The notes beneath the pieces are model-generated. The model made no database searches, was not told the origin of the DNA, and saw only the letters and a list, made by a program, of their open reading frames with translations. From Muricea muricata (lineage: Eukaryota; Cnidaria; Anthozoa; Malacalcyonacea; Plexauridae): DNA of 64,000 nucleotides. Positions 40,146-64,000 of the stretch are shown piece after piece. Position 1 is the first letter of the stretch. Every line of letters starts with the position of its first letter. The position numbers and the translations under genes were made by a program. Location: positions 6,446,176-6,510,175 of the forward strand of contig OY979723.1 of assembly GCA_963855995.1 (NCBI GenBank), in the 5' to 3' direction.

Positions 40146-43100
40146 GATAGAGATGTACTCGGGACACTCTGCTAGTGTTGACCACTATGTTTGAACTTTT
40201 CCCACTTTGGTATATTGGCCTGAATTTTTGAAATTTTTCTAAATGCGATGAAATGTCTTGAAACTTAGCTGAAATTGATGAATTAGGTAATTGTATATGA
40301 AAAAACTTAGTTTGGAACCGGAACAACTTATCTTATTGCTGTTTTAGGATTTGACTCGTTTCACCTATTGTGGCTGAACATTGGCCTTGGATGTGTTAAG
40401 TGTTTTCATTTGGCATTTTCCCATATTACATGGAAATGATGTAAAATTCTTCATGCATTACCGGATCAGCTCACGCTCGGATTTTAGCTAAGTTTGGGGC
40501 ACTAGAGATGTACTTGGGAGGCTCTGCTAGTGTTGACCACTATGTTTCAAGTTTTCCCACTTTGGTATATTGGCCTGAATTTTTGAAATTTTTCTAAATG
40601 CGATGAAATGTCATGAAACTTAGCTCAAAATGATGAATTTGGTCATTGTATATGAAAAAACTTAGTTTGGAACCGGAACAACTTATCTTATTGCTGTTTT
40701 AGGATTTGACTCATTTCACCTATTTTGGCTGAACATTGGCCTTGGATGTGGTAAGTGTTTTCATTCGGCATTTTCCCATATTACATGGAAATGATGTAAA
40801 ATTCTTCATGCATTACCGGATCAGCTCACGCTCGGATTTTAGCTAAGTTTGGGGCACTAGAGATGTACTTGGGACACTCTGCTAGTGTTGACCACTATCT
40901 TTGAACTTTTCCCACTTTGGTATATTGGCCTGAATTTTTGAAATTTTTCTAAATGCGATGAAATGTCATGAAACTCAGCTCAAATTGATGAATTAGGTAA
41001 TTGTATATGAAAAAACTTAGTTTGGAACCGGAACAACTTATCTTATTGCTGTTTTAGGATTTGACTCGTTTCACCTATTGTGGCTGAACATTGGCCTTGG
41101 ATGTGGTAAGTGTTTTCATTTGGCATTTTCCCATATTACATGGAAATGATGTAAAATTCTTCATGCATTACCGGGTCAGCTCACGCTCGGATTTTGCTAA
41201 GTTTCGAACACTAGAGATCTACTCGGGACACTCTGCTAGTGTTGACCACTATGTTTGAACTTTTCCCACTTTGGTATATTGGCCTGAATTTTTGAAATTT
41301 TTCTAAATGCGATGAAATGTCATGAAACTTAGCTCAAAATGATGAATTTGGTCATTGTATATGAAAAAACTTAGTTTGGAACTGGAACAACTTATCTTAT
41401 TGCTGTTTTAGGATTTGACTCATTTCACCTATTGTGGCTGAACATTGGCCTTGGATGTGGTAAGTGTTTTCATTCGGCATTTTCGCATATTACATGGAAA
41501 TGATGTAAAATTCTTCATGCATTACCTGATCAGCTCACGCTCGGATTTTAGCTAAGTTTGGGGCACTAGAGATGTACTTGGGACACTCTGCTAGTGTTGA
41601 CCACTATCTTTGAACTTTTCCCACTTTGGTATATTGGCCTGAATTTTTGAAATTTTTCTAAATGCGATGAAATGTCATGAAACTCAGCTCAAATTGATGA
41701 ATTAGGTAATTGTATATGAAAAAACTTAGTTTGGAACCGGAACAACTTATCTTATTGCTGTTTTAGGATTTGACTCATTTCACCTATTTTGGCTGAACAT
41801 TGGCCTTGGATGTGGTAAGTGTTTTCATTCGGCATTTTCCCATATTACATGGAAATGATGTAAAATTCTTCATGCATTACCGGATCAGCTCACGCTCGGA
41901 TTTTAGCTAAGTTTGGGGCACTAGAGATGTACTTGGGACACTCTGCTAGTGTTGACCACTATCTTTGAACTTTTCCCACTTTGGTATATTGGCCTGAATT
42001 TTTGAAATTTTTCTAAATGCGATGAAATGTCATGAAACTCAGCTCAAATTGATGAATTAGGTAATTGTATATGAAAAAACTTAGTTTGGAACCGGAACAA
42101 CTTATCTTATTGCTGTTTTAGGATTTGACTCGTTTCACCTATTGTGGCTGAACATTGGCCTTGGATGTGGTAAGTGTTTTCATTTGGCATTTTCCCATAT
42201 TACATGGAAATGATGTAAAATTCTTCATGCATTACCGGGTCAGCTCACGCTCGGATTTTGCTAAGTTTCGAACACTAGAGATCTACTCGGGACACTCTGC
42301 TAGTGTTGACCACTATGTTTGAACTTTTCCCACTTTGGTATATTGGCCTGAATTTTTGAAATTTTTCTAAATGCGATGAAATGTCATGAAACTTAGCTCA
42401 AAATGATGAATTTGGTCATTGTATATGAAAAAACTTAGTTTGGAACTGGAACAACTTATCTTATTGCTGTTTTAGGATTTGACTCATTTCACCTATTGTG
42501 GCTGAACATTGGCCTTGGATGTGGTAAGTGTTTTCATTCGGCATTTTCGCATATTACATGGAAATGATGTAAAATTCTTCATGCATTACCTGATCAGCTC
42601 ACGCTCGGATTTTAGCTAAGTTTGGGGCACTAGAGATGTACTTGGGACACTCTGCTAGTGTTGACCACTATCTTTGAACTTTTCCCACTTTGGTATATTG
42701 GCCTGAATTTTTGAAATTTTTCTAAATGCGATGAAATGTCATGAAACTCAGCTCAAATTGATGAATTAGGTAATTGTATATGAAAAAACTTAGTTTGGAA
42801 CCGGAACAACTTATCTTATTGCTGTTTTAGGATTTGACTCGTTTCACCTATTGTGGCTGAACATTGGCCTTGGATGTGGTAAGTGTTTTCATTTGGCATT
42901 TTCCCATATTACATGGAAATGATGTAAAATTCTTCATGCATTACCGGATCAGCTCACGCTCGGATTTTGCTAAGTTTCGAACACTAGAGATGTACTCGGG
43001 ACACTATGCTAGTGTTGACCACTATGTTTGAACTTTTCCCACTTTGGTATATTGGCCTGAATTTTTGAAATTTTTCTAAATGCGATGAAATGTCATGAAA

Positions 43101-46100
43101 CTTAGCTCAAAATGATGAATTTGGTCATTGTATATGAAAAAACTTAGTTTGGAACTGGAACAACTTATCTTATTGCTGTTTTAGGATTTGACTCATTTCA
43201 CCTATTTTGGCTGAACATTGGCCTTGGATGTGGTAAGTGTTTTCATTCGGCATTTTCGCATATTACATGGAAATGATGTAAAATTCTTCATGCATTACCT
43301 GATCAGCTCACGCTCGGATTTTAGCTAAGTTTGGGGCACTAGAGATGTACTTGGGACACTCTGCTAGTGTTGACCACTATCTTTGAACTTTTCCCACTTT
43401 GGTATATTGGCCTGAATTTTTGAAATTTTTCTAAATGCGATGAAATGTCATGAAACTCAGCTCAAATTGATGAATTAGGTAATTGTATATGAAAAAACTT
43501 AGTTTGGAACCGGAACAACTTATCTTATTGCTGTTTTAGGATTTGACTCGTTTCACCTATTGTGGCTGAACATTGGCCTTGGATGTGGTAAGTGTTTTCA
43601 TTTGGCATTTTCCCATATTACATGGAAATGATGTAAAATTCTTCATGCATTACCGGATCAGCTCACGCTCGGATTTTGCTAAGTTTCGAACACTAGAGAT
43701 GTACTCGGGACACTCTGCTAGTGTTGACCACTATGTTTGAACTTTTCCCACTTTGGTATATTGGCCTGAATTTTTGAAATTTTTCTAAATGCGATGAAAT
43801 GTCATGAAACTTAGCTCAAAATGATGAATTAGGTCATTGTATATGAAAAAACTTAGTTTGGAACCGGAACAACTTATCTTATTGCTGTTTTAGGATTTGA
43901 CTCATTTCACCTATTTTGGCTGAACATTGGCCTTGGATGTGGTAAGTGTTTTCATTCGGCATTTTCCCATATTACATGGAAATGATGTAAAATTCTTCAT
44001 GCATTACCGGATCAGCTCACGCTCGGATTTTAGCTAAGTTTGGGGCACTAGAGATGTACTTGAAACACTCTGCTAGTGTTGACCACTATGTTTGAACTTT
44101 TCCCACTTTGGTATATTGGCCTGAATTTTTGAAATTTTTCTAAATGCGATGAAATGTCATGAAACTCAGCTCAAAATGATGAACTGGGTCATTGTATATG
44201 AAAAAACTTCGTTTGGAACCAGAACAACTTATCTTATTGCTGTTTTAGGATTTGACTCTTTTCACCTATTTTTGCTGAACATTGGCCTTGGATGTGGTAA
44301 GTGTTTTCATTCGGCATTTTCCCATATTACATGGAAATGATGTAAAATTCTTCATGCATGACCGGATCAGCTCACGCTCGGATTTTAGCTAAGTTTGGAA
44401 CACTAGGGATGTACTCGGGACACTCTGCTAGTGTTGACCACTATGTTTGAACTTTTCCCACTTTGGTATATTGGCCTGAATTTTTGAAATTTTTCTAAAT
44501 GCGATGAAATGTCATGAAACTTAGCTCAAAATGATGAATTAGGTCATTGTATATGAAAAAACTTGGTTTGGAACCGGAACAACTTATCTTATTGCTGTTT
44601 TAGGATTTGACTCGTTTCACCTATTTTGGCTGAACATTGGCCTTGGATGTGGTGAGTGTTTTCATTCGGCATTTTCCCATATTACATGGAAATGATGTAA
44701 AATTCTTCATGCATTACCGGATCAGCTCACGCTCGGATTTTAGCTAAATTTGGGGCAATAGAGATGTACTTGGGACACTCTGCTTGTGTTGACCACTATG
44801 TTTGAACTTTTCCCACTTTGGTATATTGGCCTGAATTTTTGAAATTTTTCTAAATGCGATGAAATGTCATGAAACTTAGCTCAAAATGATGAATTTGGTC
44901 ATTGTATATGAAAAAACTTAGTTTGGAACCGGAACAACTTATCTTATTGCTGTTTTAGGATTTGACTCATTTCACCTATTGTGGCTGAACATTGGCCTTG
45001 GATGTGGTAAGTGTTTTCATTCGGCATTTTCGCATATTACATGGAAATGATGTAAAATTCTTCATGCATTACCGGATCAGCTCACGCTCGGATTTTAGCT
45101 AAGTTTGGGGCACTAGAGATGTACTTGGGACACTCTGCTAGTGTTGACCACTATCTTTGAACTTTTCCCACTTTGGTATATTGGCCTGAATTTTTGAAAT
45201 TTTTCTAAATGCGATGAAATGTCATGAAACTCAGCTCAAATTGATGAATTAGGTAATTGTATATGAAAAAACTTAGTTTGGAACCGGAACAACTTATCTT
45301 ATTGCTGTTTTAGGATTTGACTCGTTTCACCTATTGTGGCTGAACATTGGCCTTGGATGTGGTAAGTGTTTTCATTTGGCATTTTCCCATATTACATGGA
45401 AATGATGAAAAATTCTTCATGCATTACCGGATCAGCTCACGCTCGGATTTTAGCTAAGTTTGGGGCACTAGAGATGTACTTGAAACACTCTGCTAGTGTT
45501 GACCACTATGTTTGAACTTTTCCCACTTTGGTATATTGGCCATAATTTTTGAAATTTTTCTAAATGCGATGAAATGTCATGAAACTTAGCTCAAAATGAT
45601 GAACTGGGTCATTGTATATGAAAAAACTTCGTTTGGAACCAGAACAACTTATCTTATTGCTGTTTTAGGATTTGACTCTTTTCACCTATTTTTGCTGAAC
45701 ATTGGCCTTGGATGTGGTAAGTGTTTTCATTCGGCATTTTCCCATATTACATGGAAATGATGTAAAATTCTTCATGCATTACCGGATCAGCTCACGCTCG
45801 GATTTTAGCTAAGTTTGGAACACTAGGGATGTACTCGGGACACTCTGCTAGTGTTGACCACTATGTTTGAACTTTTCCCACTTTGGTATATTGGCCTGAA
45901 TTTTTGAAATTTTTCTAAATGCGATGAAATGTCATGAAACTTAGCTCAAAATGATGAATTAGGTCATTGTATATGAAAAAACTTGGTTTGGAACCGGAAC
46001 AACTTATCTTATTGCTGTTTTAGGATTTGACTCGTTTCACCTATTTTGGCTGAACATTGGCCTTGGATGTGGTGAGTGTTTTCATTCGGCATTTTCCCAT

Positions 46101-49100
46101 ATTACATGGAAATGATGTAAAATTCTTCATGCATTACCGGATCAGCTCACGCTCGGATTTTAGCTAAGTTTGGGGCACTAGAGATGTACTTGGGACACTC
46201 TGCTAGTGTTGACCACTATCTTTGAACTTTTCCCACTTTGGTATATTGGCCTGAATTTTTGAAATTTTTCTAAATGCGATGAAATGTCATGAAACTCAGC
46301 TCAAATTGATGAATTAGGTAATTGTATATGAAAAAACTTAGTTTGGAACCGGAACAACTTATCTTATTGCTGTTTTAGGATTTGACTCGTTTCACCTATT
46401 GTGGCTGAACATTGGCCTTGGATGTGGTAAGTGTTTTCATTCGGCATTTTCCCATATTACATGGAAATGATGTAAAATTCTTCATGCATTACCGGATCAG
46501 CTCACGCTCGGATTTTAGCTAAGTTTGGGGCACTAGAGATGTACTTGAAACACTCTGCTAGTGTTGACCACTATGTTTGAACTTTTCCCACTTTGGTATA
46601 TTGGCCTGAATTTTTGAAATTTTTCTAAATGCGATGAAATGTCATGAAACTTAGCTCAAAATGATGAACTGGGTCATTGTATATGAAAAAACTTAGTTTG
46701 GAACCAGAACAACTTATCTTATTGCTGTTTTAGGATTTGACTCTTTTCACCTATTTTTGCTGAACATTGGCCTTGGATGTGGTAAGTGTTTTCATTCGGC
46801 ATTTTCCCATATTACATGGAAATGATGTAAAATTCTTCATGCATGACCGGATCAGCTCACGCTCGGATTTTAGCTAAGTTTGGAACACTAGGGATGTACT
46901 CGGGACACTCTGCTAGTTTTGACCACTATGTTTGAACTTTTCCCACTTTGGTATATTGGCCTGAATTTTTGAAATTTTTCTAAATGCGATGAAATGTCAT
47001 GAAACTTAGCTCAAAATGATCAATTAGGTCATTGTATATGAAAAAACTTGGTTTGGAACCGGAACAACTTATCTTATTGCTGTTTTAGGATTTGACTCGT
47101 TCACCTATTTTGGCTGAACATTGGCCTTGGATGTGGTGAGTGTTTTCATTCGGCATTTTCCCATATTACATGGAAATGATGTAAAATTCTTCATGCATTA
47201 CCGGATCAGCTCACGCTCGGATTTTAGCTAAATTTGGGGCACTAGAGATGTACTTGGGACACTCTGCTTGTGTTGACCACTATGTTTGAACTTTTCCCAC
47301 TTTTGTATATTGGCCTGAATTTTTGAAATTTTTCTAAATGCGATGAAATGTCATGAAACTTAGCTCAAAATGATGAATTAGGTCATTGTATATGAAAAAA
47401 CTTAGTTTGGAACCGGAACAACTTATCTTATTGCTGTTTTAGGATTTGACTCATTTCACCTATTTTGGCTGAACATTGGCCTTGGATGTGGTAAGTGTTT
47501 TCATTCGGCATTTTCCCATATTACATGGAAATGATGTAAAATTCTTCATGCATTACCAGATCAGCTCACGCTCGGATTTTAGCTAAGTTTGGGGCACTAG
47601 AGATGTACTTGGGAGGCTCTGCTAGTGTTGACCACTATGTTTGAACTTTTCCCACTTTGGTATATTGGCCTGAATTTTTGAAATTTTTCTAAATGCGATG
47701 AAATGTCATGAAACTTAGCTCAAAATGATGAACTGGGTCATTGTATATGAAAAAACTTAGTTTGGAACCAGAACAACTTATCTTATTGCTGTTTTAGGAT
47801 TTGACTCTTTTCACCTATTTTTGCTGAACATTGGCCTTCGATGTGGTAAGTGTTTTCATTCGGCATTTTCCCATATTACATGGAAATGATGTAAAATTCT
47901 TCATGCATTACCGGATCAGCTCACGCTCGGATTTTAGCTAAATTTGGGGCACTAGAGATGTACTTGGGACACTCTGCTTGTGTTGACCACTATGTTTGAA
48001 CTTTTCCCACTTTTGTATATTGGCCTGAATTTTTGAAATTTTTCTAAATGCGATGAAATGTCATGAAACTTAGCTCAAAATGATGAATTAGGTCATTGTA
48101 TATGAAAAAACTTAGTTTGGAACCGGAACAACTTATCTTATTGCTGTTTTAGGATTTGACTCATTTCACCTATTTTGGCTGAACATTGGCCTTGGATGTG
48201 GTAAGTGTTTTCATTCGGCATTTTCCCATATTACATGGAAATGATGTAAAATTCTTCATGCATTACCAGATCAGCTCACGCTCGGATTTTAGCTAAGTTT
48301 GGGGCACTAGAGATGTACTTGGGAGGCTCTGCTAGTGTTGACCACTATGTTTGAACTTTTCCCACTTTGGTATATTGGCCTGAATTTTTGAAATTTTTCT
48401 AAATGCGATGAAATGTCATGAAACTTAGCTCAAAATGATGAACTGGGTCATTGTATATGAAAAAACTTAGTTTGGAACCAGAACAACTTATCTTATTGCT
48501 GTTTTAGGATTTGACTCTTTTCACCTATTTTTGCTGAACATTGGCCTTCGATGTGGTAAGTGTTTTCATTCGGCATTTTCCCATATTACATGGAAATGAT
48601 GTAAAATTCTTCATGCATGACCGGATCAGCTCACGCTCGGATTTTAGCTAAGTTTGGAAAACTAGGGATGTACTCGGGACACTCTGCTAGTTTTGACCAC
48701 TATGTTTGAACTTTTCCCACTTTGGTATATTGGCCTGAATTTTTGAAATTTTTCTAAATGCGATGAAATGTCATGAAACTTAGCTCAAAATGATCAATTA
48801 GGTCATTGTATATGAAAAAACTTGGTTTGGAACCGGAACAACTTATCTTATTGCTGTTTTAGGATTTGACTCGTTCACCTATTTTGGCTGAACATTGGCC
48901 TTGGATGTGGTGAGTGTTTTCATTCGGCATTTTCCCATATTACATGGAAATGATGTAAAATTCTTCATGCATTACCGGATCAGCTCACGCTCGGATTTTA
49001 GCTAAATTTGGGGCACTAGAGATGTACTTGGGACACTCTGCTTGTGTTGACCACTATGTTTGAACTTTTCCCACTTTGGTATATTGGCCTGAATTTTTGA

Positions 49101-51538
49101 AATTTTTCTAAATGCGATGAAATGTCATGAAACTTAGCTCAAAATGATGAATTTGGTCATTCTATATGAAAAAACTTACTTTGGAACCGGAACAACTTAT
49201 CTTATTGCTGTTTTAGGATTTGACTCATTTCACCTATTGTGGCTGAACATTGGCCTTGGATGTGGTAAGTGTTTTCATTCGGCATTTTCGCATATTACAT
49301 GGAAATGATGTAAAATTCTTCATGCATTACCGGATCAGCTCACGCTCGGATTTTAGCTAAGTTTGGGGCACTAGAGATGTACTTGGGACACTCTGCTAGT
49401 GTTGACCACTATCTTTGAACTTTTCCCACTTTGGTATATTGGCCTGAATTTTTGAAATTTTTCTAAATGCGATGAAATGTCATGAAACTCAGCTCAAATT
49501 GATGAATTAGGTAATTGTATATGAAAAAACTTAGTTTGGAACCGGAACAACTTATCTTATTGCTGTTTTAGGATTTGACTCGTTTCACCTATTGTGGCTG
49601 AACATTGGCCTTGGATGTGGTAAGTGTTTTCATTTGGCATTTTCCCATATTACATGGAAATGATGTAAAAATCTTCATGCATTACCGGATCAGCTCACGC
49701 TCGGATTTTGCTAAGTTTCGAACACTAGAGATGTACTCGGGACACTCTGCTAGTGTTGACCACTATGTTTGAACTTTTCCCACTTTGGTATATTGGCCTG
49801 AATTTTTGAAATTTTTCTAAATGCGATGAAATGTCATGAAACTTAGCTCAAAATGATAAATTAGGTCATTGTATATGAAAAAACTTAGTTTGGAACCGGA
49901 ACAACTTATCTTATTGCTGTTTTAGGATTTGACTCATTTCACCTATTTTGGCTGAACATTGGCCTTGGATGTGGTAAGTGTTTTCATTCGGCATTTTCCC
50001 ATATTACATGGAAATGATGTAAAATTCTTCATGCATGACCGGATCAGCTCATGCTCGGATTTTAGCTAAGTTTGGAACACTAGGGATGTACTCGGGACAC
50101 TCTGCTAGTTTTGACCACTATGTTTGAACTTTTCCCACTTTGGTATATTGGGCTGAATTTTTGAAATTTTTCTAAATGCGATGAAATGTCATGAAACTTA
50201 GCTCAAAATGATCAATTAGGTCATTGTATATGAAAAAACTTGGTTTGGAACCGGAACAACTTATCTTATTGCTGTTTTAGGATTTGACTCGTTCACCTAT
50301 TTTGGCTGAACATTGGCCTTGGATGTGGTGAGTGTTTTCATTCGGCATTTTCCCATATTACATGGAAATGATGTAAAATTCTTCATGCATTACCGGATCA
50401 GCTCACGCTCGGATTTTAGCTAAATTTGGGGCACTAGAGATGTACTTGGGACACTCTGCTTGTGTTGACCACTATGTTTGAACTTTTCCCACTTTGGTAT
50501 ATTGGCCTGAATTTTTGAAATTTTTCTAAATGCGATGAAATGTCATGAAACTTAGCTCAAAATGATGAATTTGGTCATTCTATATGAAAAAACTTAGTTT
50601 GGAACCAGAACAACTTATCTTATTGCTGTTTTAGGATTTGACTCATTTCACCTATTTTGGCTGAACATTGGCCTTGGATGTGGTAAGTGTTTTCATTCGG
50701 CATTTTCCCATATTACATGGAAATGATGTAAAATTCTTCATGCATTACCGGATCAGCCCACGCTCGGATTTTAGCTAAGTTTGGGGCACTAGAGATGTAC
50801 TTGGGAGGCTCTGCTAGTGTTGACCACTATGTTTCAACTTTTCCCACTTTGGTATATTGGCCTGAATTTTTGAAATTTTTCTAAATGCGATGAAATGTCA
50901 TGAAACTTAGCTCAAAATGATGAATTAGGTAATTGTATATGAAGAAACTTAGTTTGGAACCGGAACAACTTATCTTATTGCTGTTTTAGGATTTGACTCA
51001 TTTCACCTATTTTGGCTGAACATTGGCCTTGGATGTGGTAAGTGTTTTCATTCGGCATTTTCCCATATTACATGGAAATGATGTAAAATTCTTCATGCAT
51101 TACCGGATCAGCTCACGCTCGGATTTTAGCTAAGTTTGGGGCACTAGAGATGTACTTGAAACACTCTGCTAGTGTTGACCACTATGTTTGAACTTTTCCC
51201 ACTTTGGTATATTGGCCTGAATTTTTGAAATTTTTCTAAATGCGATGAAATGTCATGAAACTTAGCTCAAAATGATGAACTGGGTCATTGTATATGAAAA
51301 AACTTAGTTTGGAACCAGAACAACTTATCTTATTGCTGTTTTAGGATTTGACTCGTTTAACCTATTTTTGCTGAACATTGGCCTTGGATGTGGTAAGTGT
51401 TTTCATTTGGCATTTTCCCATATTACATGGAAATGATGTAAAATTCTTCGTGCATGACCGGATCAGCTCACGCTCGGATTTTAGCTAAGTTTGGAACACT
51501 AGAGATGTACTTGGGAGGCTCTGCTAGTGTTGACCACT
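40146..51538. repeat. 355-bp satellite array, about 32 monomers, higher-order periodicity
   Basis: The monomer includes CTTATCTTATTGCTGTTTTA, GGCTGAACATTGGCCTTGGA, CATGCATTACCGGATCAGCT, CACTCTGCTAGTGTTGACCA and TTGAACTTTTCCCACTTTGG. Successive copies of AACTTATC are 354-355 bp apart (40325, 40680, 41035, 41389, 41744). Monomer variants recur at three-unit spacing (CCGGGTCAGC at 41171 and 42235, 1,064 bp) and at two-unit spacing (CATTACCAGATCAG near 47550 and 48260, 710 bp). Each monomer carries TTTTAG and GTAAGT/GTGAGT signals around a 48-nt segment. The array runs into the gap and its true length is unknown. Confidence 0.95.
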
Positions 51539-51738: not shown

Positions 51739-52526
51739 GCTTTGCGAGCAGCAACGCTTCGTTGAGATGGATCATTGTCCATAATGAACCATTTTCGTCC
51801 ACGTTTACGCGAGAACAGAAGAGGAAACTTGTTCTGCACAAACCAAGCAAAATACCTTCCGGTCATTTTCTCGTATTCCTCGACCATAACGGCTCCCTGC
51901 TTGTAGGAAATTGCAACGAGTAGGTGCAGACGTTTCCCACCAGCAAGACTTTTTGACCCTTTCGCAGTAACCTGTAAACCCTACGACCTTTTCCTCCACA
52001 CCCGCCCTCTTGGAGCTAATGCGTCACTAAGAGGCCTGGTCTTGTGAACAGAAGATACCCCGTCTAAATAGAATGCAATACTTCGAGTGAAGAAATTTGG
52101 GCTTGTCGATAGTAATTTCTTGCACTCACATGCAAATGCCTTTCGTTTCCTACGGTCACCGTTTGTTACAACTCCCTTTTTTACGTGCTGGTAGAAAGTT
52201 AAAACCAGCCGCTTTCACCTCTCGATAAATGGTACGGTATGATATTTCGCGTGATAATAGGCCCCTTTGGGCAACCAAACGCTGAACAGTAAAGTTTGGG
52301 TCTTCATTTCGAATAGTATTAATTGTTCTTATTAGTTTTCTTCGATCTCTGTCTGTCAGCTTCTTCGGCCTACCAATATTTTTGGGTTTAATTATGCTGC
52401 GTTTTTCCTGGACACTGTCCCTGAGAATAAGCGAAACAGGTGGTTTGGATATATTCGCCTTTTTAGCAATCACTCTGCATGAATACTTTTTTCTCGGCCA
52501 AGGAAAAGAACATATGCTCGCGTCAT
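51739..52526 (-). pseudogene. Transposase of copy 0, C-terminus lost in the gap
   Basis: Reads the DNA-binding part (52156-52473: AKKANISKPPVSLILRDS, GRPKKLTDRDRRKLI) and the first catalytic Asp region, with the same frameshift and in-frame TAG as the other copies. The motif FIMDNDPSQRS is present at the gap edge; SPDLNPIEN is lost. Confidence 0.8.
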
Positions 52527-53134
52527 ATCGTAAATCCGTACATTATACTTCATAATTGTTCGCTGGGGGAAAGAACTAGCTGTGATTCATTATGAATGAC
52601 GCGCCTTTTATAATACTACCACTTCAATGCCAGGGTGGATACACAACATGACGCATAGTTTGCATAAGTATCAAATGATAAACACCCAATGATAATTGCA
52701 TTTTGTCCTAAATACGTTTACGTATTTTAAAATCCAGATAAATCGAGATGTCTTCCTTGCGTTGGCGAAAAGCAAAATCACCAATGTCCGATCACTTGTA
52801 GTATCCAGTCGCAAAATGACTGACGCATACATGTAAAGAAAAATCCGTGCTAATTGTATGTGTTGAACATCTCTGCGCTTTAAAACGTCCGTCAACTTAG
52901 TCATTTGCGAATACTGTCAAAAATACTCTCAAATACACGCATTTTTAACTTCAGAACTAAATTTTAATTCATTAATATAAATGAACCTCACAGACAATCA
53001 GTGACAAAACACTCTGGACAAAATATCAAATAACACTACACTGCTGTATATTTGACCCCCCGTGCCCCCCTTTCAATGTTGAAGCGAACAATTATGACAC
53101 AAAATGTTGTATACAACACCAACAACATTGTTTA

Positions 53135-53152
53135 GGGTGGGGGGAGGGAGGG
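53135..53152 (+). other. G-quadruplex-forming tract (copy 0)
   Basis: GGGTGGGGGGAGGGAGGG: four G runs of at least three with one-base spacers. Repeated in each transposon copy (55581-55598, 58027-58049, 60478-60502, 62931-62948) with a central G run of 6, 6, 11, 13 and 6. Confidence 0.7.
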
Positions 53153-53669
53153 AGCTGCTTTATCTAAGCAACTCTCTAAAAATTGTGTTACTTGTAGGTT
53201 GAGAAGCAACTGTCCAAAACAGTTTTGTCACTGATTGTATTAAAGCCATATCCTGCCAGATTGTATTGCATTGTTAAAAAATTTGGAATCTCTTGCGACG
53301 AGCAAAGAAATATCACTCCCTGTGGCTGTTGCTTTGCCGAATTTTTATGAAAGAAGTAACTATTCATTATGTTAGGTGAACACACAATTTCGGACATTTC
53401 TAACAATATCAATTTTGTGCACGAATATTTTGTGTAAGTAAAGCGCTTATGTCAGCAAATTTATCTCACGATTCCCACTCCTACTTAAGTAATAGTTATG
53501 GGGTAAAAGTATAATCAGATGAACTATTACTCAAATTTTCTCGCATTCCTTATTCGATTAACCTATAATGAATTGACTTGGATCTTTACTTTACGTAATA
53601 TCAATAATATGACATGAAAATCTATATTTTACCTCACGGTTCCCACTTTTCAAACAAAATAATGTGAGA

Positions 53670-53671
53670 TG
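53670..53671. repeat. TG joint between copies 0 and A
   Basis: The only two bases between GTGAGA of one copy and TCTCAC of the next. The same TG lies at 56116-56117, 58567-58568, 61020-61021 and 63466-63467. It sits where a Tc1 element would show its TA target and may be a mutated TA. Confidence 0.8.
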
Positions 53672-56115
53672 TCTCACTTTACTTATTGAATAAAGTGGGA
53701 ACCGTCGCTTTTAGCAGCTCGTTTCTCTGTATAGCGCTCTTTGTAAGCGTATTTAGACTATAAATGTTCATATTACTTGCACATACTCATGCCATGAATT
53801 TTATTTTTCGAAAACGATAAAATACGGTCAAATATCATGAAACGTACTGCATTAGCGTATGTGGGAATCGTTTAAGCGGAAGCGTGTCTTGCAAACGTTT
53901 CCATAGTAATTTGTTAATATTTTGTTCGATACCCATTTCTCTGCAATACAGCGTTAATTCGCTTTGGCACACTTGTAATTATATTATCTACATAATCTAC
54001 AGGGATGTTATGTAAAGTTTTTATAACTCTACTTTTAAATTCCTGCCATGTCTCTCGTACAATTTGCGAATCTATAACTTGTCGCTCGAGCCCTTTTTTT
54101 GCTATATGGAACATGTTTTCGATTGGATTTAAGTCTGGAGATCTTGCTGGAATGCAGAATAATTCACAGCATTCTTTCTCTATAGCTTTGCGAGCAGCAA
54201 CGCTTCGTTGAGATGGATCATTGTCCATAATGAACCATTTTCGTCCACGTTTACGCGAGAACAGAAGAGGAAACTTGTTCTGCACAAACCAAGCAAAATA
54301 CCTTCCGGTCATTTTCTCGTATTCCTCGACCATAACGGCTCCCTGCTTGTAGGAAATTGCAACGAGTAGGTGCAGACGTTTCCCACCAGCAAGACTTTTT
54401 GACCCTTTCGCAGTAACCTGTAAACCCTACGACCTTTTCCTCCACACCCGCCCTCTTGGAGCTAATGCGTCACTAAGAGGCCTGGTCTTGTGAACAGAAG
54501 ATACCCCGTCTAAATAGAATGCAATACTTCGAGTGAAGAAATTTGGGCTTGTCGATAGTAATTTCTTGCACTCACATGCAAATGCCTTTCGTTTCCTACG
54601 GTCACCGTTTGTTACAACTCCCTTTTTTACGTGCTGGTAGAAAGTTAAAACCAGCCGCTTTCACCTCTCGATAAATGGTACGGTATGATATTTCGCGTGA
54701 TAATAGGCCCCTTTGGGCAACCAAACGCTGAACAGTAAAGTTTGGGTCTTCATTTCGAATGGTATTAATTGTTCTTATTAGTTTTCTTCGATCTCTGTCT
54801 GTCAGCTTCTTCGGCCTACCAATATTTTTGGGTTTAATTATGCTGCGTTTTTCCTGGACACTGTCCCTGAGAATAAGCGAAACAGGTGGTTTGGATATAT
54901 TCGCCTTTTTAGCAATCACTCTGCATGAATACTTTTTTCTCGGCCAAGGAAAAGAACATATGCTCGCGTCATATCGTAAATCCGTACATTATACTTCATA
55001 ATTGTTCGCTGGGGGAAAGAACTAGCTGTGATTCATTATGAATGACGCGCCTTTTATAATACTACCACTTCAATGCCAGGGTGGATACACAACATGACGC
55101 ATAGTTTGCATAAGTATCAAATGATAAACACCCAATGATAATTGCATTTTGTCCTAAATACGTTTACGTATTTTAAAATCCAGATAAATCGAGATGTCTT
55201 CCTTGCGTTGGCGAAAAGCAAAATCACCAATGTCCGATCACTTGTAGTATCCAGTCGCAAAATGACTGACGCATACATGTAAAGAAAAATCCGTGCTAAT
55301 TGTATGTGTTGAACATCTCTGCGCTTTAAAACGTCCGTCAACTTAGTCATTTGCGAATACTGTCAAAAATACTCTCAAATACACGCATTTTTAACTTCAG
55401 AACTAAATTTTAATTCATTAATATAAATGAACCTCACAGACAATCAGTGACAAAACACTCTGGACAAAATATCAAATAACACTACACTGCTGTATATTTG
55501 ACCCCCCGTGCCCCCCTTTCAATGTTGAAGCGAACAATTATGACACAAAATGTTGTATACAACACCAACAACATTGTTTAGGGTGGGGGGAGGGAGGGAG
55601 CTGCTTTATCTAAGCAACTCTCTAAAAATTGTGTTACTTGTAGGTTGAGAAGCAACTGTCCAAAACAGTTTTGTCACTGATTGTATTAAAGCCATATCCT
55701 GCCAGATTGTATTGCATTGTTAAAAAATTTGGAATCTCTTGCGACGAGCAAAGAAATATCACTCCCTGTGGCTGTTGCTTTGCCGAATTTTTATGAAAGA
55801 AGTAACTATTCATTATGTTAGGTGAACACACAATTTCGGACATTTCTAACAATATCAATTTTGTGCACGAATATTTTGTGTAAGTAAAGCGCTTATGTCA
55901 GCAAATTTATCTCACGATTCCCACTCCTACTTAAGTAATAGTTATGGGGTAAAAGTATAATCAGATGAACTATTACTCAAATTTTCTCGCATTCCTTATT
56001 CGATTAACCTATAATGAATTGACTTGGATCTTTACTTTACGTAATATCAATAATATGACATGAAAATCTATATTTTACCTCACGGTTCCCACTTTTCAAA
56101 CAAAATAATGTGAGA
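53672..56115 (-). mobile_element. Tc1-like IR/DR transposon, copy A (complete, 2,444 bp)
   Basis: Bounded by TCTCAC (53672-53677) and GTGAGA (56110-56115), with TG on both sides. The left end carries outer GTGGGAACCG (53695-53704) and inner GTGGGAATCG (53861-53870) repeats 166 bp apart. The right end carries inverted counterparts 168 bp apart. Two direct repeats per inverted end, about 166 bp apart, are the IR/DR layout of Sleeping Beauty-type Tc1 elements, where transposase binds. The transposase lies near the left end on the minus strand. About 1.1 kb (54973-56115) has no known gene; minus frames at 55117-55350 and 55634-55858 are kept in all copies but unrecognised. Confidence 0.85.
53914..54972 (-). 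pseudogene. Tc1-like DD34E transposase, copy A, broken
   Basis: From ATG at 54970-54972 the frame MTRAYVLFLGREK stops early. The helix-turn-helix region continues in another frame (54602-54919: AKKANISKPPVSLILRDS, GRPKKLTDRDRRKLI, RTIYREVKAAGF). A second frameshift after SCNKR leads to KLLSTSPNFFTRSIAFYLDG (first Asp, 54508-54510), then RGRVWRKRS and TAG at 54427-54429. The last part (53914-54333) is open: RKWFIMDNDPSQRS (second Asp, 54223-54225) and ARSPDLNPIENMF (Glu, 54118-54120). Counting gives 34 residues between Asp and Glu, so DD34E as in Tc1. All three catalytic residues persist, but two frameshifts and one stop prevent a full protein. A unique G replaces A near 54762. Confidence 0.85.
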
Positions 56116-56117
56116 TG

Positions 56118-58566
56118 TCTCACTTTACTTATTGAATAAAGTGGGAACCGTCGCTTTTAGCAGCTCGTTTCTCTGTATAGCGCTCTTTGTAAGCGTATTT
56201 AGACTATAAATGTTCATATTACTTGCACATACTCATGCCATGAATTTTATTTTTCGAAAACGATAAAATACGGTCAAATATCATGAAACGTACTGCATTA
56301 GCGTATGTGGGAATCGTTTAAGCGGAAGCGTGTCTTGCAAACGTTTCCATAGTAATTTGTTAATATTTTGTTCGATACCCATTTCTCTGCAATACAGCGT
56401 TAATTCGCTTTGGCACACTTGTAATTATATTATCTACATAATCTACAGGGATGTTATGTAAAGTTTTTATAACTCTACTTTTAAATTCCTGCCATGTCTC
56501 TCGTACAATTTGCGAATCTATAACTTGTCGCTCGAGCCCTTTTTTTGCTATATGGAACATGTTTTCGATTGGATTTAAGTCTGGAGATCTTGCTGGAATG
56601 CAGAATAATTCACAGCATTCTTTCTCTATAGCTTTGCGAGCAGCAACGCTTCGTTGAGATGGATCATTGTCCATAATGAACCATTTTCGTCCACGTTTAC
56701 GCGAGAACAGAAGAGGAAACTTGTTCTGCACAAACCAAGCAAAATACCTTCCGGTCATTTTCTCGTATTCCTCGACCATAACGGCTCCCTGCTTGTAGGA
56801 AATTGCAACGAGTAGGTGCAGACGTTTCCCACCAGCAAGACTTTTTGACCCTTTCGCAGTAACCTGTAAACCCTACGACCTTTTCCTCCACACCCGCCCT
56901 CTTGGAGCTAATGCGTCACTAAGAGGCCTGGTCTTGTGAACAGAAGATACCCCGTCTAAATAGAATGCAATACTTCGAGTGAAGAAATTTGGGCTTGTCG
57001 ATAGTAATTTCTTGCACTCACATGCAAATGCCTTTCGTTTCCTACGGTCACCGTTTGTTACAACTCCCTTTTTTACGTGCTGGTAGAAAGTTAAAACCAG
57101 CCGCTTTCACCTCTCGATAAATGGTACGGTATGATATTTCGCGTGATAATAGGCCCCTTTGGGCAACCAAACGCTGAACAGTAAAGTTTGGGTCTTCATT
57201 TCGAATAGTATTAATTGTTCTTATTAGTTTTCTTCGATCTCTGTCTGTCAGCTTCTTCGGCCTACCAATATTTTTGGGTTTAATTATGCTGCGTTTTTCC
57301 TGGACACTGTCCCTGAGAATAAGCGAAACAGGTGGTTTGGATATATTCGCCTTTTTAGCAATCACTCTGCATGAATACTTTTTTCTCGGCCAAGGAAAAG
57401 AACATATGCTCGCGTCATATCGTAAATCCGTACATTATACTTCATAATTGTTCGCTGGGGGAAAGAACTAGCTGTGATTCATTATGAATGACGCGCCTTT
57501 TATAATACTACCACTTCAATGCCAGGGTGGATACACAACATGACGCATAGTTTGCATAAGTATCAAATGATAAACACCCAATGATAATTGCATTTTGTCC
57601 TAAATACGTTTACGTATTTTAAAATCCAGATAAATCGAGATGTCTTCCTTGCGTTGGCGAAAAGCAAAATCACCAATGTCCGATCACTTGTAGTATCCAG
57701 TCGCAAAATGACTGACGCATACATGTAAAGAAAAATCCGTGCTAATTGTATGTGTTGAACATCTCTGCGCTTTAAAACGTCCGTCAACTTAGTCATTTGC
57801 GAATACTGTCAAAAATACTCTCAAATACACGCATTTTTAACTTCAGAACTAAATTTTAATTCATTAATATAAATGAACCTCACAGACAATCAGTGACAAA
57901 ACACTCTGGACAAAATATCAAATAACACTACACTGCTGTATATTTGACCCCCCGTGCCCCCCTTTCAATGTTGAAGCGAACAATTATGACACAAAATGTT
58001 GTATACAACACCAACAACATTGTTTAGGGTGGGGGGGGGGGAGGGAGGGAGCTGCTTTATCTAAGCAACTCTCTAAAAATTGTGTTACTTGTAGGTTGAG
58101 AAGCAACTGTCCAAAACAGTTTTGTCACTGATTGTATTAAAGCCATATCCTGCCAGATTGTATTGCATTGTTAAAAAATTTGGAATCTCTTGCGACGAGC
58201 AAAGAAATATCACTCCCTGTGGCTGTTGCTTTGCCGAATTTTTATGAAAGAAGTAACTATTCATTATGTTAGGTGAACACACAATTTCGGACATTTCTAA
58301 CAATATCAATTTTGTGCACGAATATTTTGTGTAAGTAAAGCGCTTATGTCAGCAAATTTATCTCACGATTCCCACTCCTACTTAAGTAATAGTTATGGGG
58401 TAAAAGTATAATCAGATGAACTATTACTCAAATTTTCTCGCATTCCTTATTCGATTAACCTATAATGAATTGACTTGGATCTTTACTTTACGTAATATCA
58501 ATAATATGACATGAAAATCTATATTTTACCTCACGGTTCCCACTTTTCAAACAAAATAATGTGAGA
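56118..58566 (-). mobile_element. Tc1-like IR/DR transposon, copy B (2,449 bp)
   Basis: Same ends and order as copy A. It is longer mainly because the G tract at 58027-58049 has 11 central Gs. It shares with A the C in the GGTATTGC-type site near 56392 (CTGCAATACAG), where copies C, D and E have T. Confidence 0.88.
56360..57418 (-). pseudogene. Tc1-like transposase, copy B, broken
   Basis: Same lesions as copy A: shifted N-terminus, open DNA-binding part 57048-57365, frameshift, TAG in the middle and open catalytic end 56360-56779 with MDNDPSQRS and SPDLNPIEN. Confidence 0.85.
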
Positions 58567-58568
58567 TG

Positions 58569-61019
58569 TCTCACTTTACTTATTGAATAAAGTGGGAACC
58601 GTCGCTTTTAGCAGCTCGTTTCTCTGTATAGCGCTCTTTGTAAGCGTATTTAGACTATAAATGTTCATATTACTTGCACATACTCATGCCATGAATTTTA
58701 TTTTTCGAAAACGATAAAATACGGTCAAATATCATGAAACGTACTGCATTAGCGTATGTGGGAATCGTTTAAGCGGAAGCGTGTCTTGCAAACGTTTCCA
58801 TAGTAATTTGTTAATATTTTGTTCGATACCCATTTCTCTGTAATACAGCGTTAATTCGCTTTGGCACACTTGTAATTATATTATCTACATAATCTACAGG
58901 GATGTTATGTAAAGTTTTTATAACTCTACTTTTAAATTCCTGCCATGTCTCTCGTACAATTTGCGAATCTATAACTTGTCGCTCGAGCCCTTTTTTTGCT
59001 ATATGGAACATGTTTTCGATTGGATTTAAGTCTGGAGATCTTGCTGGAATGCAGAATAATTCACAGCATTCTTTCTCTATAGCTTTGCGAGCAGCAACGC
59101 TTCGTTGAGATGGATCATTGTCCATAATGAACCATTTTCGTCCACGTTTACGCGAGAACAGAAGAGGAAACTTGTTCTGTACAAACCAAGCAAAATACCT
59201 TCCGGTCATTTTCTCGTATTCCTCGACCATAACGGCTCCCTGCTTGTAGGAAATTGCAACGAGTAGGTGCAGACGTTTCCCACCAGCAAGACTTTTTGAC
59301 CCTTTCGCAGTAACCTGTAAACCCTACGACCTTTTCCTCCACACCCGCCCTCTTGGAGCTAATGCGTCACTAAGAGGCCTGGTCTTGTGAACAGAAGATA
59401 CCCCGTCTAAATAGAATGCAATACTTCGAGTGAAGAAATTTGGGCTTGTCGATAGTAATTTCTTGCACTCACATGCAAATGCCTTTCGTTTCCTACGGTC
59501 ACCGTTTGTTACAACTCCCTTTTTTACGTGCTGGTAGAAAGTTAAAACCAGCCGCTTTCACCTCTCGATAAATGGTACGGTATGATATTTCGCGTGATAA
59601 TAGGCCCCTTTGGGCAACCAAACGCTGAACAGTAAAGTTTGGGTCTTCATTTCGAATAGTATTAATTGTTCTTATTAGTTTTCTTCGATCTCTGTCTGTC
59701 AGCTTCTTCGGCCTACCAATATTTTTGGGTTTAATTATGCTGCGTTTTTCCTGGACACTGTCCCTGAGAATAAGCGAAACAGGTGGTTTGGATATATTCG
59801 CCTTTTTAGCAATCACTCTGCATGAATACTTTTTTCTCGGCCAAGGAAAAGAACATATGCTCGCGTCATATCGTAAATCCGTACATTATACTTCATAATT
59901 GTTCGCTGGGGGAAAGAACTAGCTGTGATTCATTATGAATGACGCGCCTTTTATAATACTACCACTTCAATGCCAGGGTGGATACACAACATGACGCATA
60001 GTTTGCATAAGTATCAAATGATAAACACCCAATGATAATTGCATTTTGTCCTAAATACGTTTACGTATTTTAAAATCCAGATAAATCGAGATGTCTTCCT
60101 TGCGTTGGCGAAAAGCAAAATCACCAATGTCCGATCACTTGTAGTATCCAGTCGCAAAATGACTGACGCATACATGTAAAGAAAAATCCGTGCTAATTGT
60201 ATGTGTTGAACATCTCTGCGCTTTAAAACGTCCGTCAACTTAGTCATTTGCGAATACTGTCAAAAATACTCTCAAATACACGCATTTTTAACTTCAGAAC
60301 TAAATTTTAATTCATTAATATAAATGAACCTCACAGACAATCAGTGACAAAACACTCTGGACAAAATATCAAATAACACTACACTGCTGTATATTTGACC
60401 CCCCGTGCCCCCCTTTCAATGTTGAAGCGAACAATTATGACACAAAATGTTGTATACAACACCAACAACATTGTTTAGGGTGGGGGGGGGGGGGAGGGAG
60501 GGAGCTGCTTTATCTAAGCAACTCTCTAAAAATTGTGTTACTTGTAGGTTGAGAAGCAACTGTCCAAAACAGTTTTGTCACTGATTGTATTAAAGCCATA
60601 TCCTGCCAGATTGTATTGCATTGTTAAAAAATTTGGAATCTCTTGCGACGAGCAAAGAAATATCACTCCCTGTGGCTGTTGCTTTGCCGAATTTTTATGA
60701 AAGAAGTAACTATTCATTATGTTAGGTGAACACACAATTTCGGACATTTCTAACAATATCAATTTTGTGCACGAATATTTTGTGTAAGTAAAGCGCTTAT
60801 GTCAGCAAATTTATCTCACGATTCCCACTCCTACTTAAGTAATAGTTATGGGGTAAAAGTATAATCAGATGAACTATTACTCAAATTTTCTCGCATTCCT
60901 TATTCGATTAACCTATAATGAATTGACTTGGATCTTTACTTTACGTAATATCAATAATATGACATGAAAATCTATATTTTACCTCACGGTTCCCACTTTT
61001 CAAACAAAATAATGTGAGA
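58569..61019 (-). mobile_element. Tc1-like IR/DR transposon, copy C (2,451 bp)
   Basis: Complete copy with a 13-G central run at 60478-60502. From here on copies carry TGTAATACAG and TTCTGTACAAACC in place of the C variants in A and B, marking two sub-lineages in physical order. Confidence 0.88.
58811..59869 (-). pseudogene. Tc1-like transposase, copy C, broken
   Basis: Lesions as in A and B. DNA-binding part 59499-59816, catalytic end 58811-59230. The TTCTGTACAAACC variant is silent in the catalytic frame. Confidence 0.85.
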
Positions 61020-61021
61020 TG

Positions 61022-63465
61022 TCTCACTTTACTTATTGAATAAAGTGGGAACCGTCGCTTTTAGCAGCTCGTTTCTCTGTATAGCGCTCTTTGTAAGCGT
61101 ATTTAGACTATAAATGTTCATATTACTTGCACATACTCATGCCATGAATTTTATTTTTCGAAAACGATAAAATACGGTCAAATATCATGAAACGTACTGC
61201 ATTAGCGTATGTGGGAATCGTTTAAGCGGAAGCGTGTCTTGCAAACGTTTCCATAGTAATTTGTTAATATTTTGTTCGATACCCATTTCTCTGTAATACA
61301 GCGTTAATTCGCTTTGGCACACTTGTAATTATATTATCTACATAATCTACAGGGATGTTATGTAAAGTTTTTATAACTCTACTTTTAAATTCCTGCCATG
61401 TCTCTCGTACAATTTGCGAATCTATAGCTTGTCGCTCGAGCCCTTTTTTTGCTATATGGAACATGTTTTCGATTGGATTTAAGTCTGGAGATCTTGCTGG
61501 AATGCAGAATAATTCACAGCATTCTTTCTCTATAGCTTTGCGAGCAGCAACGCTTCGTTGAGATGGATCATTGTCCATAATGAACCATTTTCGTCCACGT
61601 TTACGCGAGAACAGAAGAGGAAACTTGTTCTGTACAAACCAAGCAAAATACCTTCCGGTCATTTTCTCGTATTCCTCGACCATAACGGCTCCCTGCTTGT
61701 AGGAAATTGCAACGAGTAGGTGCAGACGTTTCCCACCAGCAAGACTTTTTGACCCTTTCGCAGTAACCTGTAAACCCTACGACCTTTTCCTCCACACCCG
61801 CCCTCTTGGAGCTAATGCGTCACTAAGAGGCCTGGTCTTGTGAACAGAAGATACCCCGTCTAAATAGAATGCAATACTTCGAGTGAAGAAATTTGGGCTT
61901 GTCGATAGTAATTTCTTGCACTCACATGCAAATGCCTTTCGTTTCCTACGGTCACCGTTTGTTACAACTCCCTTTTTTACGTGCTGGTAGAAAGTTAAAA
62001 CCAGCCGCTTTCACCTCTCGATAAATGGTACGGTATGATATTTCGCGTGATAATAGGCCCCTTTGGGCAACCAAACGCTGAACAGTAAAGTTTGGGTCTT
62101 CATTTCGAATAGTATTAATTGTTCTTATTAGTTTTCTTCGATCTCTGTCTGTCAGCTTCTTCGGCCTACCAATATTTTTGGGTTTAATTATGCTGCGTTT
62201 TTCCTGGACACTGTCCCTGAGAATAAGCGAAACAGGTGGTTTGGATATATTCGCCTTTTTAGCAATCACTCTGCATGAATACTTTTTTCTCGGCCAAGGA
62301 AAAGAACATATGCTCGCGTCATATCGTAAATCCGTACATTATACTTCATAATTGTTCGCTGGGGGAAAGAACTAGCTGTGATTCATTATGAATGACGCGC
62401 CTTTTATAATACTACCACTTCAATGCCAGGGTGGATACACAACATGACGCATAGTTTGCATAAGTATCAAATGATAAACACCCAATGATAATTGCATTTT
62501 GTCCTAAATACGTTTACGTATTTTAAAATCCAGATAAATCGAGATGTCTTCCTTGCGTTGGCGAAAAGCAAAATCACCAATGTCCGATCACTTGTAGTAT
62601 CCAGTCGCAAAATGACTGACGCATACATGTAAAGAAAAATCCGTGCTAATTGTATGTGTTGAACATCTCTGCGCTTTAAAACGTCCGTCAACTTAGTCAT
62701 TTGCGAATACTGTCAAAAATACTCTCAAATACACGCATTTTTAACTTCAGAACTAAATTTTAATTCATTAATATAAATGAACCTCACAGACAATCAGTGA
62801 CAAAACACTCTGGACAAAATATCAAATAACACTACACTGCTGTATATTTGACCCCCCGTGCCCCCCTTTCAATGTTGAAGCGAACAATTATGACACAAAA
62901 TGTTGTATACAACACCAACAACATTGTTTAGAGTGGGGGGAGGGAGGGAGCTGCTTTATCTAAGCAACTCTCTAAAAATTGTGTTACTTGTAGGTTGAGA
63001 AGCAACTGTCCAAAACAGTTTTGTCACTGATTGTATTAAAGCCATATCCTGCCAGATTGTATTGCATTGTTAAAAAATTTGGAATCTCTTGCGACGAGCA
63101 AAGAAATATCACTCCCTGTGGCTGTTGCTTTGCCGAATTTTTATGAAAGAAGTAACTATTCATTATGTTAGGTGAACACACAATTTCGGACATTTCTAAC
63201 AATATCAATTTTGTGCACGAATATTTTGTGTAAGTAAAGCGCTTATGTCAGCAAATTTATCTCACGATTCCCACTCCTACTTAAGTAATAGTTATGGGGT
63301 AAAAGTATAATCAGATGAACTATTACTCAAATTTTCTCGCATTCCTTATTCGATTAACCTATAATGAATTGACTTGGATCTTTACTTTACGTAATATCAA
63401 TAATATGACATGAAAATCTATATTTTACCTCACGGTTCCCACTTTTCAAACAAAATAATGTGAGA
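61022..63465 (-). mobile_element. Tc1-like IR/DR transposon, copy D (2,444 bp)
   Basis: Complete copy. The G tract begins GAGTGGGGGG (62931) instead of GGGTGGGGGG. Otherwise very close to copy C. Confidence 0.88.
61264..62322 (-). pseudogene. Tc1-like transposase, copy D, broken
   Basis: Same lesions. DNA-binding part 61952-62269, catalytic end 61264-61683. One amino-acid change, ERQV to ERQA, distinguishes it (about 61427). Confidence 0.85.
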
Positions 63466-63467
63466 TG

Positions 63468-64000
63468 TCTCACTTTACTTATTGAATAAAGTGGGAACCG
63501 TCGCTTTTAGCAGCTCGTTTCTCTGTATAGCGCTCTTTGTAAGCGTATTTAGACTATAAATGTTCATATTACTTGCACATACTCATGCCATGAATTTTAT
63601 TTTTCGAAAACGATAAAATACGGTCAAATATCATGAAACGTACTGCATTAGCGTATGTGGGAATCGTTTAAGCGGAAGCGTGTCTTGCAAACGTTTCCAT
63701 AGTAATTTGTTAATATTTTGTTCGATACCCATTTCTCTGTAATACAGCGTTAATTCGCTTTGGCACACTTGTAATTATATTATCTACATAATCTACAGGG
63801 ATGTTATGTAAAGTTTTTATAACTCTACTTTTAAATTCCTGCCATGTCTCTCGTACAATTTGCGAATCTATAACTTGTCGCTCGAGCCCTTTTTTTGCTA
63901 TATGGAACATGTTTTCGATTGGATTTAAGTCTGGAGATCTTGCTGGAATGCAGAATAATTCACAGCATTCTTTCTCTATAGCTTTGCGAGCAGCAACGCT
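63468..64000 (-). mobile_element. Tc1-like IR/DR transposon, copy E (cut by window end)
   Basis: Left terminal region and the carboxy end of the transposase (63710 onward, including SPDLNPIEN). The array evidently continues past the window. Confidence 0.85.

Follow-up and report, generated by a model that had tools for sequence, protein, structure and literature searches.

Elements pairing a Rep-like gene with a Tc1-type transposase gene often form tandem arrays in Muricea muricata

The window analyzed here is a 64,000-nucleotide stretch of the Muricea muricata genome (contig OY979723.1, positions 6,446,176 to 6,510,175), which from position 51739 to its end is occupied by part of a tandem array of Tc1-related units. 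We consider it likely that this array is a decayed member, with a 2446-bp period, of an element family with two genes, one for a Rep-like protein and one for a Tc1-type transposase, and that its arrays arise from a form of the element with a single copy of the terminal repeat, here called M. Elements of this Rep + Tc1 family often form arrays. Their architecture, the phase of the array unit, the right ends of arrays at M and the near-identical M pairs within elements were read in individual copies, while the paired convergent genes (23 loci) and the arrays of Rep genes (six) are seen from the positions of matches.

Ends of the array unit

A previous reading of the letters of the window (the sequence-only reading) had described complete Tc1-like transposons, with left ends TCTCAC and right ends GTGAGA, joined head to tail by TG at five sites. 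The five sites are indeed present: GTGAGATGTCTCAC starts at window positions 53664, 56110, 58561, 61014 and 63460, giving periods of 2446, 2451, 2453 and 2446 bp, and the six units, partial ones included, differ in five single-base columns and one G-run. Genome-wide, this 14-mer has 90 matches versus 2 for the reversed control. The array of Tc1-related elements is real, but its joint had been misplaced.

In the whole genome (453 Mb in 74 contigs, labeled C1, C2, C8 and so on; L-numbers label individual loci that were read), the pattern of the supposed left end, with up to 3 mismatches allowed, has 99 matches, 81 of them in two arrays and 18 dispersed. TCTCAC or its variant is preceded by TG, not TA, in all 18 dispersed left ends, and in 17 of these copies the supposed right end still adjoins over at least 109 bp (17 bp in the remaining one, L044). 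Since dispersed copies continue across the site without a TA, GTGAGATGTCTCAC is internal to a dispersed repeat and TCTCAC/GTGAGA are not element ends. TG is constant in 20 aligned windows around the site; GTGAGA is young, several older copies having ATGAGA or ATGACA. A search for either supposed end outside the array context returned 186 matches. No secure free copy was found among the 100 listed (the other 86 are one-mismatch matches): both exact matches are known copies, and so are, together with array units, all but one of the listed one-mismatch matches, the exception being probably due to chance (7 control matches).

These results bear directly on the model in which complete Tc1 elements ending in TCTCAC/GTGAGA meet across 2 bp, on the pattern of the Drosophila Bari1 cluster. 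In its favor, the repeats around TG are symmetric and have a spacing like that in Sleeping Beauty. In addition, Bari1 offers a precedent for head-to-tail Tc1 arrays (PMC8834629). However, no listed match is a free copy with such ends, single copies end at M and TA, the perfect GTGAGA is missing from older copies, and in two fuller relatives the repeat module lies between convergent genes and has a different centre sequence. The 2-bp joint is contradicted in the Muricea genome at the stringency used, and we give it almost no credence. Two Tc1 elements abutted at TG were ruled out as the array joint by the internal position of the site in dispersed copies and fuller relatives.

The sequence-only reading had proposed to look for single copies in the genome and compare their flanks for TA. 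Single copies do have such flanks, at ends lying elsewhere than TCTCAC/GTGAGA, an outcome which that reading had itself named as refuting it. The window subfamily includes five single copies, at C1:30.76, C1:38.69, C1:89.6, C2:34.56 and C9:8.7, that carry M at either end and are flanked by TA left and right, the right M being partly deleted in C2:34.56 and C9:8.7; together with two fuller relatives described below, seven single copies have TA/TA flanks. M is a direct repeat of ~243 bp (unit positions 1770-2012), and its edges, which abut TA, carry CAATCAGTGACAAAAC and form 16-bp perfect inverted edges. The right end of both large arrays, in C8 and C1, is also an M edge, followed in C1 by TA and then a microsatellite. 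Because single copies and array right ends stop at M edges, the array is best written as (M-X)n, with one shared M as the joint. The repeat period is therefore not one transposon plus 2 bp; neighboring units share one M of ~243 bp. The corresponding features of the window are as follows.

51739..64000, + strand: window portion of the (M-X)n array; begins mid-unit after a 200-N gap and runs on along C8 to ~6594399
52995..53237, + strand: M block 1, joint between units, 243 bp, edges CAATCAGTGACAAAAC / GTTTTGTCACTGATTG
55441..55683, + strand: M block 2, 243 bp
57887..58134, + strand: M block 3, 248 bp, longer G run
60338..60587, + strand: M block 4, 250 bp, longer G run
62791..63033, + strand: M block 5, 243 bp
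53273..53350, + strand: last codons of the lost Rep gene, ending in CDEQRNITPCGCCFAEFL and a stop, convergent to the transposase; compared with L075
53468..53871, no strand assigned: four-repeat module around the TG site, ACGATTCCCACT at 53468, ACGGTTCCCACT at 53636, AGTGGGAACCGT at 53694 and TGTGGGAATCGT at 53860
53664..53677, no strand assigned: GTGAGATGTCTCAC, the supposed junction, internal to the element; also at the four further positions given above
53914..54919, - strand: broken Tc1-type transposase, helix-turn-helix (HTH) part 54919-54602, DDE_3 part 54333-53914

The inner pair of the four-repeat module is separated by 46 bp, and the module recurs at 55914, 58365, 60818 and 63264. The units are Tc1-related, as had been claimed: the transposase piece matches DDE_3 above the Pfam cut-off (E=6e-11), has DD34E spacing as counted by eye, and has Sleeping Beauty SB100X as the best match among solved structures (5cr4, E=1.2e-8). 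The supposed ends are internal, however, and the HTH and DDE_3 parts of the transposase are separated by a change of frame and a stop. Besides this broken gene, the unit retains just the final Rep codons.

The M edges were also searched directly. The right edge has 183 matches, and the first 100 listed include 36 dispersed ones, 30 of which, counted by eye, have TA as the next two bases, 7 of them being M-X joints. A second edge search gave 274 matches (first 100 listed, 19 exact), with a pattern that contains TA and thus favors TA-flanked copies. The left array edge is predicted to be TA-CAATCAGTGAC. The right M is missing in L031, L040 and the C1:118 copy (L070). Where M is absent, CAGA-CCTG-TA takes its place in units 17-18 of the C8 array and in L031, and CAGA-CAG-TA in L040 and L070; judging from these letters, the CCTG and CAG sites may be excision scars. 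A dimer, M-X-M-X-M, with TT on either side, is found at C8:7.33 Mb; a comparison of 650 bp shows its two units in agreement. Readings as a LINE-like (long interspersed nuclear element) 5′-truncating element, a Penelope-like element or a Helitron had been raised from the right edge alone and were dropped when the left M/TA edge was found. Separately, a variant M edge (ending in CAATCAGTGACAAAACATT) recurs, among the matches listed, at ~18-28-kb steps at C9:3.81-3.87 and 5.41-5.48 Mb, which suggests a larger repeated segment.

Fuller relatives and tandem Rep loci

Two TA-flanked relatives are longer than the window unit, namely, L075 (C1:90.12 Mb, 4.07 kb) and a copy at C2:32.85 Mb (4.23 kb, 95% identical to L075). 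Both have the order M, Rep-like gene, four-repeat module, Tc1-type transposase on the opposite strand, M, with direct terminal repeats of 184-249 bp. The Rep-like gene carries the motifs YLITYSQ, HFHMAI, YVTKED and GPASCGKT, read by eye as HUH motifs and a Walker A motif. In L075, Rep is split across two frames and the transposase across two pieces; the C2 copy also has its Rep gene in two frames, with a transposase frame uninterrupted for 365 aa. Pieces were searched separately. The module consists of two ACGRTTCCCAY and two GTGGGAAYCGT repeats, spaced by 166-171 in each pair; its layout and the 46-bp inner gap are common to the window, L075 and the C2 copy, whereas the centre sequence differs. 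The L075 transposase piece matches HTH_Tnp_Tc3_2 above the Pfam cut-off and DDE_3 below it. For the L075 Rep, both REP_ORF2-G2P (PF23343) and superfamily 3 (SF3)-type Pfam matches are below the cut-off.

Remnants of Rep are also found in older copies, which have a partial open frame with a Walker A motif adjoining M, and two older copies, L058 and L059 (C3:36.62 and 36.45 Mb), have lost the stretch around the TG site and kept more of the Rep frame. The Rep piece had no relatives in viral_contigs, in a search able to reveal close relatives only, and nothing meaningful in PHROGs; against PDB, the L058 Rep piece had weak matches, most of them to AAA-type ATPases, and the L075 Rep piece only chance matches.

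The pairing of the two genes extends across the genome. The L075 transposase has 979 candidates, 140 of which were scored; 55 of these, of which 40 lie in the C8 array and 15 at other known loci, are of the window subfamily and were set aside. Of the remaining 85 matches, 78 have a convergent Rep match within 3.5 kb, none has one in another orientation and 7 have none. Among scored candidates, the 78 convergent pairs correspond to 23 loci.

The HUH piece of Rep has 305 candidates in the genome, and the 150 that were scored include six tandem loci with a near-constant period (main period 3956-4049 bp):

C1:9.79: 6 copies, 4049 bp; Rep frame 449-504 aa
C2:49.86: 6 copies, 3956 bp, one step of 3683; Rep frame 449-504 aa
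C3:60.58-60.64: 17 copies, 4023 bp, steps of 3772 and 3762; Rep frame 449-504 aa
C34:7713-121956: 30 copies, 4023 bp, steps of 3771, 3772 and 4017; Rep 449-504 aa in 18/30 and 167 aa in 12
C7:7.84: 2 copies, 3971 bp; Rep frame 259 aa
C9:10.97: 5 copies, 4028 bp; Rep frame 449-504 aa

The C34 array switches strand between 92.0 and 93.5 kb. In four of the six loci (C2, C3, C34 and C9) the transposase recurs at matching steps, with frames open over 365-374 aa. Rep proteins at C3, C34 and C9 match REP_ORF2-G2P marginally above the cut-off (29.7-31.1 versus 27.8 bits; 150 of 287 candidates scored). In the C3 array, a 701-bp piece lying between the 5′ end of Rep and that of the transposase following it contains an M-like block of ~254 bp, the right edge of which matches M or L075 over 15-20 bp (94-100%). 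Some steps are shorter by 251 and 261 bp in C3 and by 251-252 bp in C34, that is, by nearly the length of the ~254-bp M-like block.

A different view of M is that it was a standalone miniature inverted-repeat transposable element which chanced to flank X in direct orientation and mobilized it, in the way bacterial insertion sequences (IS) mobilize DNA flanked by two copies. Pairs of TA-flanked M edges ~235-240 bp apart, apparently solo M judging from the edges alone (C1:5747366/5747598 and C2:56766538/56766299), are consistent with such an origin. On the other hand, M is present at both ends of the two fuller Rep + Tc1 copies and, in a distant branch, at the corresponding position; it thus has the look of a permanent component of the element, from which solo M could derive. 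We consider a composite transposon unlikely.

Origin and homogenization of the arrays

The M copies of one element are nearly identical. The left and right M differ by 0/243, 0/239, 1/243, 1/193, 0/79, 1/184 and 0/243 substitutions in seven elements. By comparison, M copies from different young elements are 1-7 substitutions apart, and those of the two fuller elements 6-7 substitutions, with larger indels besides. As for long terminal repeats (LTRs), the difference of 0-1 within a pair suggests renewal of the two copies from a single M, in a circle, in an array or by gene conversion in cis.

The proposed life cycle is as follows. A fuller member of ~4 kb comprises M, a Rep-like gene (HUH motifs and an SF3-like ATPase), the four-repeat module, a convergent Tc1/Sleeping Beauty-like transposase gene and a second M, the outer M edges forming inverted ends that abut TA. 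The element would pass through a single-M stage, either a circle or a tandem array, and the transposase or a relative would insert M-X-M or longer pieces at TA. Arrays would grow from the one-M form, through Rep-driven rolling-circle concatemers or recombination between M copies, and would then be homogenized by unequal exchange. Because the fuller relatives have a Rep gene, concatemers made by rolling-circle replication are an attractive putative source of arrays. For the last rounds of growth of the Rep-less window subfamily, recombination is at least as likely. With Rep nearly all lost and the transposase broken, this subfamily would now need the proteins of its relatives or merely recombine. 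The sequence-only idea of a circle with abutted ends stays a live one, with the joint placed at M.

The two large arrays allow homogenization to be followed. The C8 array is one gap-free stretch (C8:6497914-6594812) with 39 left ends and 38 full units plus partial ends; the C1 array (61.85-61.95 Mb) has 42 left ends and 41 full units, 40 of 2409 bp and one of 2384 bp. Mean pairwise substitution divergence is 0.14% within C8 and 0.20% within C1, whereas the two consensus units differ at 76/2404 aligned sites (3.2%), plus indels; each array was thus homogenized independently. Like satellite DNA, both are long homogenized tandem arrays. In C8, neighbors are the most alike, the mean number of substitutions between units rising from 2.54 at lag 1 through 2.81 at lag 2 to 3.1-3.7 at lags 3-15; a higher-order period of 12 units is seen in C1. 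The odd C1 unit (index 26) is omitted from the lag counts and kept in the 0.20% divergence; distances to L029, inflated by misalignment past an indel, were disregarded.

Such patterns are what plain unequal exchange would leave. Here, a single M-X-M insertion would have expanded between its direct M repeats, as between LTRs, with Rep playing no part in the window array; the anatomy of the element is the same as in our preferred explanation and just the mode of array growth differs. Besides the greater likeness of neighboring C8 units, the 12-unit period in C1 and the separate homogenization of the two arrays, the absence of Rep from the window subfamily speaks for it. Unequal exchange alone leaves unexplained the occurrence of arrays in several branches of the Rep family and, barring gene conversion, the likeness of M pairs in single copies. 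We regard it as having nearly an even chance of being correct.

An assembly artefact, in which single copies were collapsed or expanded into arrays, is in our view very improbable. A 200-N gap bounds the C8 array on either side and an N run lies left of the C1 array, so that their place and size are not fully anchored. Yet the units bear distinct variants (26 among the 38 of C8 and 19 among the 41 of C1), the C1 array continues without a gap into other DNA on the right, and the C8:7.33 Mb dimer has other DNA on both sides.

Several observations weigh against our preferred explanation, growth from a one-M form of a Rep + Tc1 element. With respect to the ends, only five of the ten dispersed copies read first on the right end at M, two ending at the M site without M and three elsewhere; the left M is missing in L029, L030, L034 and L044; 6 of the 36 listed dispersed right M edges, by eye, are not followed by TA; the right M edge of the C8 array also lacks TA; and the left ends of the C8 and C1 arrays fall at gaps. 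Some distinct elements differ by just 1 in M, and gene conversion in cis could equally keep an M pair alike. As for Rep, assignment to HUH and SF3 proteins draws on motifs picked out by eye and marginal Pfam scores, and the REP_ORF2-G2P model also matches other, partly long frames in the genome, as well as 3 of 14 control genomes. The 701-bp piece of the C3 array is the sole sequence read from an array outside the window subfamily, and the left edge of its M-like block matches weakly (17 bp, 88%, E=0.38). No scored transposase (140 of 979 candidates) lies near the C1:9.79 and C7:7.84 Rep arrays. Finally, the single-M stage, the circle and rolling-circle replication are steps that we infer from sequence.

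Relation to known systems

The elements resemble the Sleeping Beauty branch of Tc1/mariner: they have DDE_3 (window) and HTH_Tnp_Tc3_2 (L075) above the cut-offs, SB100X as the best structure and terminal inverted repeats next to TA, with TA at both edges in the seven single copies and the TT/TT dimer and the 6/36 edges as exceptions. They differ in having a second, convergent Rep-like gene, direct terminal M repeats and tandem arrays at several loci. Bari1 of Drosophila melanogaster, the closest of the known arrays, is likewise of Tc1 type and stands in long rows of head-to-tail copies at two or more loci, for which an origin by circles or rolling-circle replication was proposed; in a review, the Bari1 array is said to be without a comparable described example among transposable elements, and the circle is given as a proposal (PMC8834629). 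However, Bari1 copies meet at their own ends with the first two nucleotides lost, whereas here units end at M, ~243 bp of which is shared, and TCTCAC/GTGAGA are internal; a Rep gene for Bari1 is unmentioned in the text consulted (PMC8834629).

Replication-initiator proteins provide a second set of comparisons. With circular Rep-encoding single-stranded DNA (CRESS)-type replicons and integrated Rep plasmids, the elements have in common motifs read by eye as HUH motifs with a YxxK-type motif III (YVTK), Walker A, weak SF3-type Pfam matches and direct repeats at integration borders (PMC6668415); TA flanks through Tc1-type ends and a DDE transposase gene set the Muricea elements apart. Helitrons and Replitrons are also eukaryotic elements with an HUH protein. 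As described, Replitrons have no terminal inverted repeats (TIRs) and 5-11 bp direct repeats, and Helitrons lack both target-site duplications and TIRs (PMC10741241). By that description the present elements belong to neither, as they have inverted edges, TA on both sides and direct repeats of 184-249 bp, besides an SF3-like domain and a DDE transposase (PMC10741241). Composite transposons, known mostly from bacteria, similarly enclose cargo between direct flanking repeats (PMC9977792), and IS26 translocatable units are linked with tandem arrays; the analogy is one of layout only.

Among the papers listed by searches of an open-licence library, none describes a Rep + Tc1 transposase pairing in its title or the opening of its abstract; most subscription papers and repeat databases lie outside that scope, so this is weak evidence of novelty, and we treat the elements as a variant of Tc1/mariner. 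A bolder and tentative proposal, to which we give somewhat less than an even chance, is that they constitute a hitherto undescribed eukaryotic class of hybrid replicon-transposons, combining a CRESS-like Rep (HUH + SF3) with a Tc1 DD34E transposase, which would form circles and rolling-circle concatemers and insert as monomers or multimers at TA via M edges. If so, some satellite-like arrays would be footprints of replicated circles. The pairing of Rep and Tc1 transposase at 23 loci would link single-stranded DNA-type replicons with cut-and-paste transposons. More broadly, the origin of long arrays of whole transposons is a question for which the Muricea genome supplies several arrays along with many single copies, and with a replication-initiator-like gene beside the transposase gene, a circle or rolling-circle origin of such arrays becomes testable.

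The window also holds other repeats. A 355-bp satellite (~32 copies, 40148-51538) lies immediately left of the gap that precedes the array. With up to 3 mismatches, 40 bases of this satellite match the genome 3883 times (first 100 listed), and the exact matches listed are in C8 at 0.27-0.33, 6.49 and 14.38 Mb, with a single one on C4. Tandem repeats with a period near 126 bp, plus longer periods, occupy 16938-19561. Judged by eye, a 290-aa open frame at 21072-21944 (- strand) has the look of a mariner-type transposase, and 29739-30272 (- strand) that of the end of a reverse transcriptase.

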